Source: Bacteroidales bacterium (lineage in GTDB: Bacteria; Bacteroidota; Bacteroidia; Bacteroidales; Bacteroidaceae). Taken from it: a DNA stretch of 41,299 nucleotides. Position numbers and translations under genes: made by a program. The notes under the pieces are model-generated. The model was not told where the DNA came from, ran no database searches, and saw nothing but the letters and a program-made list of their open reading frames with translations. Numbering within the stretch: position 1 is the stretch's first letter; every line of letters begins with the position of its first letter. Below are positions 7,645 through 31,449 of this stretch, in pieces. The stretch lies in contig JAAYDO010000104.1 in NCBI GenBank assembly GCA_012729225.1, forward strand, positions 1 through 41,299, written 5' to 3'.

Positions 7645-7677
7645 GTATCGAAGGCATATCGAAGGCATATCGAAGGC
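7645..7677. repeat. 11-base tandem repeat, three units (ATCGAAGGC core)
   Basis: Three consecutive 11-mers of the form (g/a)tatcgaaggc start at 7645, 7656 and 7667. A closely related three-unit copy lies at 22441-22473, and both copies are followed by ttg. It follows the stop of ruvC (minus strand) by about 45 bases. The period equals one DNA helical turn. Confidence 0.85.
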
Positions 7678-14899: not shown

Positions 14900-15101
14900 T
14901 TGTGCCTCATTCTGCCAATCAGCGCAAATTGTATGGAAGACTCCTGTCTTGAGATATGAAATGCGTCCCGAGTCCAATCCTTTTTCTGTTGTAAACATCA
15001 TTAGGAATGGTCGTTGTAAACAATGTTGAAAAGGGAAATGCAACCATGAATTTTATGGAATGAAGCACATCTCACGATTGGAGTTTTCTTCGTGCTTCAA
15101 C

Positions 15102-15179
15102 GAACCATTGTTCAAGTGCCAACGCACCATGCTTCAAGTGCTCATGAACAATTGTTCGTTGGCCTTCGCACCATGCGTG
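15102..15179. repeat. 22-base periodic array of palindromic cores (locus A)
   Basis: Units start at 15102, 15124, 15146 and, degraded, 15168. Each has a 12-base core and a 10-base spacer. The cores are GAACCATTGTTC, GCACCATGCTTC, GAACAATTGTTC (a perfect palindrome) and GCACCATGCGTG. Spacers such as aagtgccaac and aagtgctcat are related. The same core family is found at 28990-29099. The period is not a multiple of three, so this is not coding repetition. Confidence 0.8.
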
Positions 15180-15307
15180 TGTTTTTGCTCTTGCAAGTAT
15201 GGGGTAGCAGAATCTCCGTTTCATGGGTGCATCATACAAACAGAGCCACCCTGTCTGCACATCATGTCCACTTTATGCCATCACTGCTTAAAAAAGTCTC
15301 TGTTCAC

Positions 15308-15368: not shown

Positions 15369-16277
15369 ATGAGAAAAATGAGACTTTTCATGATGGTTGT
15401 CGGCATCACACTGTCGTCCATCGCCACAGCACAAAAGAATGCGACTTTTCAGCAATATATAGATCAGTATAAAGAGGCAGCCATTGACCAGATGCGTCGC
15501 TATCGTATCCCTGCCAGCATCACCCTCGCACAAGCCTTGTTGGAGAGTGGAGCAGGTTCCAGTTATCTGGCTCGCACTGCCAACAATCACTTTGGTATCA
15601 AGGTGAGTGGTGGATGGACAGGACCATATGTCACTCGTGATGACGATGATAAGGACGAGCGTTTCAGAAAATACAGCCATGTGTCTGAAAGTTATGAGGA
15701 TCATTCCAAGTTTCTTCTTAAAGACCGTTACAAGTCGCTCTTTGATCTTAATCCTCAAGACTACAAGGGATGGGCTCGTGGACTCAAGGCATGTGGCTAT
15801 GCTACATCGCCTACTTATGCCAATCGGCTCATTACTATCATAGAGACCTACGAACTCTTTGATCTTGATGAAGACCGTCTTGGTTTCAGGCGTTACAAGC
15901 GACCAGAGCCTCCTGTCTATGTTGCTCCCACTCGTCACAGCGTCCGTATGGTCAATGGAGTTCAGTGCGTCACGGCACGTGAGGGTGACACTTGGGAAGG
16001 TCTTGCTAAGGAACTGAAGATTTCCAAGAAGAAACTCCTTAAGTTCAATGAGATAAGTGAGGATTATCAGCCAGCACCTGGTATGAACATCTTCCTTGAT
16101 AAAAAGGCAAAGAAGGCAGAAGCCCAATATAAAGATACTTGGCACAAGGTTCAGTCAGGAGAGTCCATGTATGCTATTGCTCAATACTATGGCATTCGTC
16201 TTGAGAGCCTCTACAAGATGAACTTCAAGGACGACTCTTATGTGCCAGCCACTGGCGATTTGCTCAAGGTAAGGTGA
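15369..16277 (+). CDS. Exported glucosaminidase (FlgJ/LytD type) with two LysM domains
   Basis: 302 residues from ATG 15369, which is preceded at the right distance by a promoter and opens a signal peptide (MRKMRLFMMVVGITLSS, cut near ATAQ). The glucosaminidase domain spans about 25-170, with the catalytic glutamate in ALLESGAG (E59). It hydrolyses the glycan strands of peptidoglycan. Two LysM modules follow (about 195-240 and 257-302, the second as WHKVQSGESMYAIAQYYGI), which hold the enzyme on peptidoglycan. A role in cell-wall turnover or daughter-cell separation is likely. It stands alone in its strand segment. Confidence 0.9.
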   Translation: MRKMRLFMMVVGITLSSIATAQKNATFQQYIDQYKEAAIDQMRRYRIPASITLAQALLESGAGSSYLARTANNHFGIKVSGGWTGPYVTRDDDDKDERFRKYSHVSESYEDHSKFLLKDRYKSLFDLNPQDYKGWARGLKACGYATSPTYANRLITIIETYELFDLDEDRLGFRRYKRPEPPVYVAPTRHSVRMVNGVQCVTAREGDTWEGLAKELKISKKKLLKFNEISEDYQPAPGMNIFLDKKAKKAEAQYKDTWHKVQSGESMYAIAQYYGIRLESLYKMNFKDDSYVPATGDLLKVR

Positions 16278-22404: not shown

Positions 22405-22440
22405 TAAGGAAAGAAAAAATGGTGGAATTATCCCATACTC

Positions 22441-22473
22441 CTATCGAAGGTCTATCGAAGGCATATCGAAGGC
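22441..22473. repeat. 11-base tandem repeat, three units, second copy
   Basis: Units ctatcgaaggt, ctatcgaaggc and atatcgaaggc start at 22441, 22452 and 22463. They match the array at 7645-7677 in unit, copy number and following bases. Confidence 0.85.
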
Positions 22474-27717: not shown

Positions 27718-28716
27718 ATGACCCTTCGCTTTCTTTCTGAAAAGATGAAACCCTTTCCGCACTCGCAAGGAAAAAGTGCCATAGACCGCCATTGCGCCAT
27801 CGTGTATGCTCTCCACACGGCTATTGTTGTCATCATCATTTCTGTGCAACTCGCTGGGCTGGGTGGCTCGCAGGAGGTTTTTCCAAAGGTTATGAGTGTC
27901 ATTCACCTGTCTGTGTGTCTCACGCTGTTCATGTTTTGGCGTTTGCATAGGCTGTCCATTCCGAAAGCTTTGTCGATAGTGGCTCTTGTGGCACAAACTA
28001 TCTTCGTGTTTCGGGCGATTTACTTTGCTCAAGAACGTCCCGAAAATTTCCTTCAATTCTTTCTGCTCAACCAGATTGCCTCGCTGTTGGCTGTGGTGTT
28101 TCTTGTGATGTGTTTTGTCAAATACACACCATTCATTGTGGCGGCTCTCAGTCTTTCCACCTATGCTGGCATTGCTGCCTATCTGGAAGAACCAGCCTTG
28201 TGGAACATCTTTGGATTCTTTGTGGGTGCTCAGATCTTTTTATGTGTGTTGGGTGAACTGTTGCGCCGCAATGTGCTACATGTGAACATGGAGAATATAA
28301 GTCTGCATATGCATGCCGTCAGGCTCAATGAACGTGAGATCGAAGGCTATCTGCGCATGAGCAGCAACGACCATCCATCAGCTGACGATGTGGACCGCCT
28401 GTTTGCAATGCTCACCCCGAAGTCTCAGCGCAATATCATCAATGCTGTGCGCATGCATCTGAGGAGTCATCTGATGGATGACTGTGACCTTACGCACTTC
28501 TTCCCAGCCCTCACGAAATCGGAGGTGGACGTGTGTAGCCTCATCCTGCAAGGTAAGAAATTGAGCGAAATCTGCCAACTGCTTGACAAGACGGAGAAGA
28601 ATATTGGAGTGGTGCGCACTCATGTGCGCAGAAAACTGAATGTGCCTTCCAACCAAGACCTGAAGAATTATCTCATGGAAAAGTTGGCGGACCGGAGGCA
28701 AAAGGGGGTGGACTGA
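27718..28716 (+). CDS. Membrane-anchored LuxR-type transcriptional regulator
   Basis: 332 residues. About six hydrophobic helices (near 27-48, 58-76, 81-103, 112-135, 138-156 and 161-182) are followed by a linker and a C-terminal LuxR/FixJ-type helix-turn-helix (LTKSEVDVCSLILQGKKLSE to VRTHVRRKL, about 265-307). Such one-component regulators sense a signal in or outside the membrane and bind DNA directly; there is no phosphoacceptor domain. It is divergent from the surface protein gene across about 310 bases, so it may control that gene. This is inference from position. Confidence 0.82.
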   Translation: MTLRFLSEKMKPFPHSQGKSAIDRHCAIVYALHTAIVVIIISVQLAGLGGSQEVFPKVMSVIHLSVCLTLFMFWRLHRLSIPKALSIVALVAQTIFVFRAIYFAQERPENFLQFFLLNQIASLLAVVFLVMCFVKYTPFIVAALSLSTYAGIAAYLEEPALWNIFGFFVGAQIFLCVLGELLRRNVLHVNMENISLHMHAVRLNEREIEGYLRMSSNDHPSADDVDRLFAMLTPKSQRNIINAVRMHLRSHLMDDCDLTHFFPALTKSEVDVCSLILQGKKLSEICQLLDKTEKNIGVVRTHVRRKLNVPSNQDLKNYLMEKLADRRQKGVD

Positions 28717-28881
28717 TGAAATAGCACTCATGCTGATGTTTTCTGAATCCGTTCAATGACTTGTTCATATCGTCTTTGGCTGAGATTCATGCCCTTTTTC
28801 CTCGTTGTGTGGTGTGGGTGCTTGCTTGACATCTTCCTTCTTTTCTTTCTTCAAAGAAGTGTACCTTTTTTCTCTCAGACT

Positions 28882-28969
28882 ACTATATGGTTGGTGAGTA
28901 AAAACTATATGGTTAGTGAGTAAATACTATATGGTTGCCACTCTGCTACCATATGGTTGCTGTTTTTCT
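28882..28969. repeat. 22-base periodic array with CTATATGG-type cores (locus C)
   Basis: Four units start at 28882, 28904, 28926 and 28948. The cores are ACTATATGGTTG, ACTATATGGTTA, ACTATATGGTTG and ACCATATGGTTG, and the last contains the perfect palindrome ACCATATGGT. The 10-base spacers change from gtgagtaaaa to ctgtttttct. Core and spacer lengths are the same as in the neighbouring GAACAATTGTTC array although the sequence differs. Confidence 0.85.
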
Positions 28970-28989
28970 ACCCTGTATCTTCTGAAAAA

Positions 28990-29099
28990 GAACAATTGTT
29001 CGATGGCCAATGAACAATGCTTCAAGTGTTGATGGATAATGCTTCAAGTGTTGATGAACAATTGTTCGATGCTCAACGAACAATGCTTCGTTTTCATGC
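28990..29099. repeat. 22-base periodic array with GAACAATTGTTC-type cores (locus B)
   Basis: Five units start at 28990, 29012, 29034, 29056 and 29078 with no slippage. The cores are GAACAATTGTTC, GAACAATGCTTC, GGATAATGCTTC, GAACAATTGTTC and GAACAATGCTTC. Spacers are gatggccaat, aagtgttgat (twice), gatgctcaac and gttttcatgc. They are related to locus A at 15102-15179. Confidence 0.88.
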
Positions 29100-29186
29100 C
29101 TACAATGGCATGTCCTTTGTGTTTATTGGTAATGGCTTGTCTGTCAATAAAATAGATGGGGATGAGTTTGCGCTTGTATATAAAGA

Positions 29187-29217
29187 GAGTGGAGAAGGGG
29201 GTTGTCCTTCTCCACTC
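29187..29217 (-). terminator. Terminator after mutB
   Basis: GAGTGGAGAAGG and CCTTCTCCACTC form a perfect 12-bp stem around a 7-base loop. On the minus strand TCTTTATATAC follows. It lies about 65 bases past the mutB stop. Confidence 0.75.
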
Positions 29218-29283: not shown

Positions 29284-31449
29284 TCAATCCTCATTGAGAA
29301 TCTTCATGATTTCACAGCAGGCTTTGGCCACGTTGGTGCCAGGTCCGAAGACTGCTGCCACGCCTGACTTATAGAGGAAGTCATAGTCTTGAGCAGGGAT
29401 GACACCGCCTGCGATGACGAGAATGTCTTCGCGACCGAGTTTCTTGAGTTCTTCAATCACCTGCGGGATGAGTGTCTTGTGACCTGCGGCAAGTGAGGAT
29501 ACGCCGAGCACATCAACGTCGTTCTCAACTGCCTGACGGGCAGACTCGGCTGGAGTCTGGAAGAGAGGACCCATATCGACGTCCATACCACAGTCGGCAT
29601 AGCCAGTTGCCACTACCTTTGCGCCACGGTCATGACCATCCTGTCCCATCTTTGCGATCATGATGCGAGGACGACGGCCGTTTGCCTGTGCGAATTTCTC
29701 TGTGGCTTCGCAGGCTTCCTTAAATGCCTGGTCGCCTTTTGATTCTGTACTGTACACGTTGCTGATAGTTTTGATGATTGCTTTGTAACGACCTACTACA
29801 GCCTCGCATGCATCTGAGATTTCACCGAGGGTGCAACGGAGGCCTGCTGCCTTGACGGCGAGGTCGAGAAGGTTGTTCTCACTCTTCTTGCCATCCTGAA
29901 ACTCTTGCACGCACTTGGTGATTTCGGCAAGTGCTGCCTTGCAGGCTGCCTCGTCACGGTTGGCTTTGAGTTCTTTGAGGGCTGCTTCCTGCTGAAGACG
30001 TACGGCAGTGTTATCAACCTCAAGGATGTCGAGTGGGTCTTCGTGGTCAAGGCGATACTTGTTAGTGCCCACGATGGTCTGATTGCCAGAGTCGATACGT
30101 GCTTGAGTGCGTGCTGCAGCCTCTTCAATGCGCATCTTTGGAAGACCTGTCTCGATGGCCTTAGCCATACCGCCGAGTTTCTCAATCTCCTGAATGTGTT
30201 CCCAAGCCTTGTGAACAAGTTCGTTGGTGAGTGTCTCCACATAGTATGAACCTGCCCAAGGGTCGATTTGCTTGCACACCTTGGTCTCGTTCTGGATGTA
30301 GATCTGGGTGTTGCGTGCAATACGTGCAGAGAAGTCTGTAGGAAGTGCGATTGCCTCGTCGAGGGCATTGGTGTGGAGCGACTGGGTGTGTCCAAGAACA
30401 GCGGCCATTGCTTCTATGCATGTGCGACCTACGTTGTTGAATGGATCCTGCTCGGTGAGTGACCAGCCTGATGTCTGTGAGTGTGTGCGGAGAGCGAGTG
30501 ACTTTGGATTCTTTGCGCCGAAGCTCTTCACAATCTTTGCCCACAACAGACGGCCTGCGCGCATCTTGGCAATCTCCATGAAGTGGTTCATGCCGATGGC
30601 CCAGAAGAAGGAGAGGCGTGGTGCGAAGGCATCAACATCGATACCTGCATTGACACCTGTGCGGAGATAGTCCATACCGTCGGCCAGGGTGTATGCCAAC
30701 TCAATATCTGCTGTTGCGCCCGCTTCCTGCATGTGGTAGCCTGAGATGGAGATAGAGTTGAACTTAGGCATCTTCTGTGATGTGAACTCGAAGATGTCAG
30801 CGATAATCTTCATGGAGAATGCTGGTGGGTAGATGTAGGTGTTGCGCACCATGAACTCCTTGAGGATGTCGTTCTGGATAGTACCAGCCATCTCCTCCAG
30901 CTGTGCGCCTTGCTCCAAACCTGCGTTGATGTAGAAGGCAAGGACTGGGAGCACGCCTCCGTTCATGGTCATAGACACTGACATCTTGTTCAATGGAATA
31001 CCGGCAAAGAGTGTCTTCATGTTCTCAAGAGAGCAGATGGACACGCCTGCCTTGCCCACATCACCTACAACACGAGCGTTGTCTGGGTCGTAGCCACGGT
31101 GGGTTGGAAGGTCGAATGCCACAGAAAGACCCTTCTGGCCTGATGCGAGATTGCGACGATAGAACGCATTGGACTCTTCGGCAGTGGAGAATCCGGCATA
31201 CTGACGGATGGTCCAAGGACGGAAGGGGTACATCATTGAGTAAGGACCACGGAGATAGGGAGGAATACCGGCAGTGAAGTCAAGGTGCTCCATGCCATCG
31301 AGGTCTTCCTTGGTATATACTGGCTGAATGTCAATCTGCTCTGGTGTTCTCCAGTTTGCACTGATGCCATTCTCTTTCTGCCACTGCTGACCGTTCTTCT
31401 CCTGAACGCCAGCATATATATCTATATTTTTAAAATCTTTTCTTGCCAT
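29284..31449 (-). CDS. mutB: Methylmalonyl-CoA mutase, large (catalytic) subunit
   Basis: 721 residues. This adenosylcobalamin enzyme interconverts succinyl-CoA and methylmalonyl-CoA, the route to propionate in Prevotella and Bacteroides. The TIM barrel carries [17 protein letters not shown] and [13 protein letters not shown] (about residues 54-98). The C-terminal cobalamin domain has the base-off DxHxxG motif in [12 protein letters not shown] (about 600-611) and GVSSLAAGH. It follows mutA by 2 bases, so the heterodimer subunits are translated together. Confidence 0.97.

Follow-up and report, generated by a model that had tools for sequence, protein, structure and literature searches.

Palindrome ladders on a 22-bp step in dispersed intergenic repeats of a Bacteroidales genome

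Results

Two worn arrays between convergent genes

The window analysed here is a 41,299-nucleotide stretch from a Bacteroidales genome assembly of 2.89 Mb (213 contigs, 88.8% complete). Between a LuxR-type gene and a methylmalonyl-CoA mutase gene, it carries two short arrays, C and B, built from palindrome-like cores (Table 1). The C cores start at 28881, 28903, 28925 and 28947 (n = 4) and the B cores at 28990, 29012, 29034, 29056 and 29078 (n = 5), in both cases at exact 22-base steps. Over positions 28878–29105 the autocorrelation peaks at lag 22 (0.62) and lag 44 (0.48), with all other lags from 5 to 59 at 0.4 or lower, and the C array has the top TRF score in the window (98). The core positions and the autocorrelation bear out the dyad centres and the 22-base ladders of a preliminary description of this DNA. 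Three C cores read ACTATATGGT, and the fourth, ACCATATGGT, is a perfect palindrome; among the B cores, the perfect palindrome GAACAATTGTTC occurs twice (28990 and 29056), next to two copies of GAACAATGCTTC and one of GGATAATGCTTC, both imperfect. Perfect palindromes make up three of the nine cores at the locus, and the commonest B core, GAACAATGCTTC, is an imperfect one.

Table 1. Coordinates and strand of the features in the window
Feature	Position	Strand	Basis
Second B copy in the window, upstream of the gene at 15390–16277	15060–15217	+	nhmmer, 119.7 bits; TRF 22-bp array
Left neighbour gene, LuxR-type (GerE) domain, reading towards the ladders	27718–28716	+	Gene call, Pfam
C-family remnant: leader end and ladder	28846–28962	+	nhmmer C-profile matches, 28846–28914 and 28903–28962
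B-family remnant: five-core ladder and tail start, usual leader absent	28987–29156	+	nhmmer, 113.8 bits; model 173–341 of 562
Terminator-like hairpin GAGTGGAGAAGG...CCTTCTCCACTC of the mutase gene, T-rich 3′ side, between mutase and ladder	29187–29217	−	By eye
Right neighbour gene, methylmalonyl-CoA mutase, reading towards the ladders	29284–31449	−	Gene call, Pfam

The preliminary description had further joined the two arrays into one element, with all cores in a common register and on one face of the DNA. The gap that it gave is correct: the nearest C–B distance at the locus is 43, not 44. A common register, however, is not the rule, as three other C–B pairs, which are related composites, lie 193, 193 and 171 bp apart (17 modulo 22) and a fourth 396 bp apart (0 modulo 22). 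Because the spacing differs among these pairs, a joint C+B ladder was rejected, and a single element spanning both arrays is not supported. The cores share a face only approximately, since with 10.5 bp per turn a 22-bp step makes 2.1 turns. What stands at the locus are worn copies of two dispersed intergenic repeat families, side by side between convergent genes, of which C retains part of its leader and B has lost it. The mutase was matched in all 26 congeneric genomes, own included, and no 22-bp ladder was seen at its 3′ side in any of the 12 congeners examined (best 44-base lag-22 identity 0.36–0.45), so that the locus itself is not conserved.

The B and C families in the genome

A search of the own genome with the B array returned at least 50 matches (40 of 149 candidates scored), and a profile search gave 56 matches, representing 53 loci, in the part of the genome searched. 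Sixteen copies above 60 bits fall in 287,033 bp of contigs picked by number, which extrapolates to an estimated ~160 copies genome-wide from a sample in which short contigs are over-represented. Two copies sit at contig ends of the assembly (L050 at the start of G000:C166 and L051 at the end of G000:C83), and the copy number may therefore be underestimated. Full copies are MITE-like elements of ~500 bp, laid out as a leader, mostly four to six units, and a tail. By eye, the order of units is kept across copies, with GAAGCATTCTTCATGCTCCAACG first, GAACAATGCTTCAAGTGCCAAYG in the middle and GAACCATGCGTGCGTTTT closing, which indicates that the arrays descend together rather than being re-amplified at each site. 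No B copy has its midpoint within a called gene (0 of 54 rows). The 42 rows with gene context (two loci counted twice) comprise 23 convergent, 17 tandem and 2 divergent gaps, against a background of 19/87/19 (n = 125), and no strand bias was found in the tandem contexts (10 vs 7). The gene next to the second copy in the window encodes a protein with glucosaminidase and LysM domains (Pfam).

The ends of the B family resemble those of an insertion sequence. The left end of the consensus, AACGTGAGTTCGATGAATT, and that of a PF13612 (DDE_Tnp_1_3) remnant on contig C183 have an identical stretch of 19 bases; their right ends resemble each other, the B copy L056 ending in AATTCGTCAAACTCACGTTA and the C183 remnant in GAATTCGTCTTACTCATGTTA. 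A further B copy (L110:1233–1507, 219.7 bits) abuts another PF13612 fragment on contig C34. Three PF13612 matches are present in the genome, each spanning part of the profile, as well as two PF01609 matches, one of them in an open frame (C169), beside which a scan for the B end motif found none. An 8-bp target-site duplication, TAAACATA, is possible at L052, and none is evident by eye at L064, L078 and L057. We take PF13612 to mark the IS982 family, and thus the C183 and C34 remnants to be IS982-type; ISPg3 of Porphyromonas gingivalis presumably belongs to the same family. In the available text of PMC4596501, ISPg3 is filed under IS5, and the left TIR of P. gingivalis MITE239 begins ACGTGAGTTCGAT (Table 2 there), which equals the B end over its first 13 bases; an internal 22-bp ladder is not reported for MITE239 in that text. 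The B family is dispersed, non-coding, short and multicopy, and it has TIRs in common with an insertion sequence of the genome, a feature seen for B only. Judging from these sequence features, B is very probably a dispersed MITE-like element.

The same designation is given to the C family with less confidence. A search with the C array returned 32 matches at 25 loci (30 of 30 candidates scored), seven of the matches being second ones at loci already counted. Many copies start near TATGCCAGTTCGGGATAAG. After the C array at L002, L016, L027 and L028 comes a frame that by eye resembles a transposase C-terminus, and then ends like CTTATCCCAAACTGGGGTA; the ends of the element are resolved only in part. 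Pfam gave nothing at cut-off for two frames suspected to be transposase remnants, apart from one DUF7068 match with E 0.18. By eye, a C element apparently interrupts a B array at L019.

Conservation within the elements and their units

In the seven B copies that have all parts and come from unselected contigs, the ladder is 85% identical to the B consensus, as compared with 67% for leader and tail. Over all 20 B alignments the values are 83% for the ladder vs 68% and 65%. Differences between neighbouring units were counted in 14 arrays whose dyad is clear, 13 of which come from other genomes and one from the own genome. They amount to 4–17% at 2–4 bases from the dyad and 31–33% at the centre, with 21–25% at 5–6 bases and 31–75% at 7–11 bases; shuffled consensus units give 21–31%. 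This profile is that of paired half-sites with free centres. A function of the ladder is favoured because the ladder is kept better than the element body, and the arms better than the centres and spacers. Exchange between units or copies could also account for the better conservation of the ladder.

In some arrays the two half-sites seem, by eye, to have changed together, namely in L342 from 3117 (GTAC..GTAC to GAAC..GTTC), in L242 from 3437 (GGAC/GTCC, GCAC/GTGC, GAAC/GTTC) and in L144:1264–1348 (AAG/CTT, ACG/CGT, GGA/TCC). A pooled test of such co-changes gave no excess. Compensatory change was rejected as proof of pairing: the dyad has 40 paired double changes and the slid centres 3–26 (highest at the half-period), a null that is biased since the centre is picked where the consensus pairs, and permutation within arrays gave z = −0.01, that is, no excess.

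22-bp ladders with unrelated cores in related genomes

In 287 kb of own-genome contigs picked by number, 13 of 21 intergenic arrays with a period of 15–30 have period 22. With TRF and no preset core, intergenic 22-bp arrays numbered 13 in the own genome, 11 in G165, 8 in G103, 5 in G107 and 3 in G072, where G165 and G107 had been sampled because of known matches and three G165 stretches picked to contain known ladders. In total, the own-family samples hold 40 such arrays, and five of seven genomes are positive, own included; G072 has six further intergenic arrays at period 23. None was found in the same-family genomes G044 (65 kb) and G109 (100 kb), in 300 kb of G020, G025 and G026, which represent three other families of the order, or in 200 kb of Escherichia coli.

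A perfect 12-bp palindrome is present in 13 of the 40 period-22 consensus units, with 0.5 expected from shuffling. Among arrays of other periods the counts are 0/17 (23 bp), 2/11 (21 bp), 1/23 (15–20 bp) and 1/19 (24–60 bp), and 1/39 among genic arrays of 15–30 bp. Many of the period-22 cores are unrelated to one another, for example GCTTGTACAAGC, TATCTTAAGATA, TTTTTACTAAAAA and CTCTTCACAGCCGTGAAGAG. The palindrome ladder on a 22-bp step recurs with many unrelated cores in the same bacterial family and in a Parabacteroides. The build that the preliminary description saw in both arrays, a palindromic core on a 22-bp step, is real, enriched in the genome and present in related genera; that description had held that finding neither the period nor the cores enriched elsewhere would speak against it, and enrichment is what we see.

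GAAC-N4-GTTC ladders across species and in phages

We found 137 occurrences of the pair GAACN4GTTC-N10-GAACN4GTTC, spread over 18 of 301 genomes and 7 of 30 genera of the family, vs three for the reversed control; in five of the 18 genomes the match is a single pair, which may be due to chance or coding. When the gap was left free (2–32), 73 of 75 forward pairs among the matches listed (7 of 12 genomes) had a gap of 10 or 32 and two a gap of 9. The core centres vary by species: the own genome has AATT/AATG, and other species have ATAT, CTAT/ATAG, TTTA, AAGC and further variants. Scanning 84,980 species, with one genome per species, for three GAAC-N4-GTTC cores in a row gave 106 stretches. Among the 80 matches listed, 75 are from Bacteroidota (23 isolates). 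The names given are Bacteroidaceae, Prevotella, Bacteroides, Bacteroidales, in one case just Bacteroidetes, and Parabacteroides sp. PH5-46, and rumen or gut MAGs are numerous among them; the other five are from Nitratifractor, Roseobacter, an Osedax symbiont, an alphaproteobacterium and a Polyangiaceae MAG.

Gene context was taken from 75 of the 106 stretches, leaving out the five non-Bacteroidota matches and 26 beyond those listed. Fifty-four of these ladders were placed (20 'edge' cases and one 'inside' case standing outside the count), with 20 in convergent, 25 in tandem and 9 in divergent gaps vs a background of 15/100/38. Five of the nine PH5-46 ladders lie in divergent gaps. No gene family recurred beside the ladders in more than three of the 144 neighbour proteins scanned (out of 152).

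In Parabacteroides sp. PH5-46 we found at least nine copies of an element whose length is exactly 80 bp (e.g. L244, L255, L267 and L315). The element has seven dyads, one every 11 bp, in which CCCACA NN TGT alternates with GAAC WYRW GTTC, and ends CCCACA..TGTGGG. The GAAC/GTTC arms and the outer ends were fixed by the search pattern; in the 18 inner ACA..TGT pairs, which were free, both arms are kept in 15 and the centres vary. A hairpin of the whole 80-bp element was rejected, the complementarity having p = 0.155 for core 1 with core 3 and p = 0.375 for core 1 with core 2, and the spacers lying below permutation.

In six of 15 viral stretches, from three phage types (L347, L349, L350, L351, L352 and L361), the ladder lies by eye within a replication-initiator-like gene that adjoins DnaB- or DnaC-like genes, also identified by eye. 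These in-gene GAAC-N4-GTTC ladders on a 22-bp step are probably iterons, and the sites of the lambda O protein are a parallel.

Discussion

As far as the available text of PMC4596501 goes, the closest published relative in kind is BrickBuilt of P. gingivalis, a dispersed intergenic MITE with a leader, internal 23-nt imperfect repeats, a tail and short TIRs. Some of its copies are without leader or tail, stem loops are predicted, the arrays reach 22.8 units, the repeats have no spacers, the TIRs are IS5-type, and nucleotide matches are reported for no species beyond P. gingivalis and P. gulae (same text). The B family shares with BrickBuilt the dispersed and intergenic placement, the leader/array/tail layout, the short TIRs, the predicted stem loops and the truncated copies, and the remark in the preliminary description that it knew no described element of this form is not supported, BrickBuilt being close. 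BrickBuilt differs in its period of 23, its longer arrays, its want of spacers, the IS5 type of its TIRs and its species range, and no palindromic-core ladder is described in the text available. Judged by period, 22 here against a 23-nt unit there, the ladders are not BrickBuilt itself. No account of 22-bp palindromic ladders in Bacteroidales was found in the parts of open-licence PMC text available, PMC5771137 included. BrickBuilt_7 also adjoins a methylmalonyl-CoA mutase gene (Table 1, PMC4596501, as available). The adjacency that it shares with our window is probably a coincidence.

Iterons of plasmid and lambda-type phage origins are dyad sites about two turns apart that are bound by initiator dimers. 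The ladders are alike in their two-turn dyads, and six of the 15 viral stretches have theirs inside initiator-like genes; unlike iterons, the ladders are dispersed in chromosomes, have no recurrent neighbour family and use many different cores. REP and BIME are short, high-copy intergenic palindromes, and REP is further marked by a GTAG/CGTC tag and a RAYT gene. The ladders share shortness, high copy and intergenic palindromes with them, and the strict 22-bp tandem step is their own.

Several other explanations have to be weighed. That the ladders stand between the LuxR-type and mutase genes could suggest an operator specific to this locus and serving one of them; however, both genes point towards the ladders, the mutase 3′ side is bare in all 12 congeners examined, and the same arrays occur at dozens of further loci, which makes this very improbable. 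Still harder to believe are SOS boxes. Gram-positive LexA reads GAAC-N4-GTTC, the ladder motif is built like these boxes, and GAACATATGTTC occurs in a review of the Staphylococcus aureus SOS response and in one of SPbeta, both as far as available. Nevertheless, LexA boxes of this type were rejected: the LexA DNA-binding domain was unmatched in eight of ten genomes, own included, the other two gave a short weak match (one just at cut-off), and the motif fits neither C nor the other cores. A reading that we regard as quite improbable has the ladder act as RNA: once transcribed, it would fold into hairpins that serve as a bidirectional terminator or protect 3′ ends. The excess of B copies in convergent gaps (23 of 42 rows vs 19 of 125) agrees with it, as do the appearance of compensatory change in single arrays (L144, L342), the pairing of the B leader hairpin in 65% of cells (36–45% when slid) and the runs of at least five A before and at least five T after the array, each in 42% of 73 ladders of other genomes where 21% is expected. 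Those runs come mainly from two genomes: in the other genomes to which these data refer, they flank 18 of 18 arrays of one and 6–7 of 9 of another, and in the remaining 21 isolates they are sporadic or missing, and we set a bidirectional terminator aside as the general reading. Moreover, pairing within arrays equals permutation (159 column pairs; slid centres −3.45 to 3.34), the leader hairpin reaches 65.3% against 63.8% in shuffled alignments (67 of 500 shuffles as high), RNAalifold finds no structure in the B leader, and Rfam on 12 loci gives only a tRNA. The absence of strand bias in tandem contexts and the terminator-like hairpin that the mutase gene carries of its own also speak against it. 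Covariation of paired columns, as in structured RNA, was thus found neither in the ladder arrays nor in the B leader, and the transcribed chain of small structures that the preliminary description had offered as its second option gains no support.

The main rival is of another kind, namely that the ladder is an inert minisatellite within the MITEs, its 22-bp units made by slippage and carried along as passengers without function. BrickBuilt, as its available text presents it, is a precedent; the copies are old and broken, the orthologous site is without a ladder in 12 congeners, and the ladders have no common neighbour family. Against this, seven of seven copies retain the ladder better than the body, the arms are better kept than centre and spacer, and an equal period with unrelated cores across several genera is unexpected under neutral slippage. 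We consider an inert repeat unlikely, albeit to be taken seriously.

Our preferred reading, held tentatively and just short of what we would call probable, is that the ladder is a multi-site protein-bound DNA platform carried by MITE-like elements. On the strength of the sequence comparisons, what is kept would be the ladder and not the element body, because the ladder would work as a series of dyad sites spaced by two helical turns. A dimeric DNA-binding protein would occupy these dyads side by side, as an initiator does on iterons, and this occupation would serve either the element, by taking part in its transposition or regulating it, or the chromosome of the host. Of the cooperative multi-site element proposed in the preliminary description, the dyad sites on DNA are favoured by the conservation of the arms, and the extension of one element over both arrays falls away. 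Having raised the possibility of a protein-bound platform, we would note that one sequence-specific binder cannot read all ladders, because the cores differ between families even in one genome.

A broader proposal, which is possible and which we regard as rather doubtful, is that Bacteroidales have a general class of such elements: dyad ladders with a fixed two-turn step (22–23 bp), constrained in period and symmetry and free in sequence, which would be served by a common machinery that reads the architecture or by co-diversifying binders, would travel in MITE-like vehicles and would count BrickBuilt as an outlying member. Within this proposal, the dyads would sometimes stand at every single turn, as in the 80-bp Parabacteroides element. 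If this is true, a two-turn spacing common to unrelated repeats points either to a hidden DNA-binding system of common gut and rumen bacteria or to a new constraint on their repeats. The proposal also raises a testable question, namely what reads a ladder with a fixed step and free letters.

As a separate observation, a family of arrays with an 11-bp unit, half of 22 (TATCGAAGGCA / CCTATCGAAGG), is present in the window at 7646–7677 and 22440–22473, and elsewhere in the left flank of L007, at L068:7972 and at L082:4079. The 287-kb sample of the own genome has 21 TRF rows of period 11.
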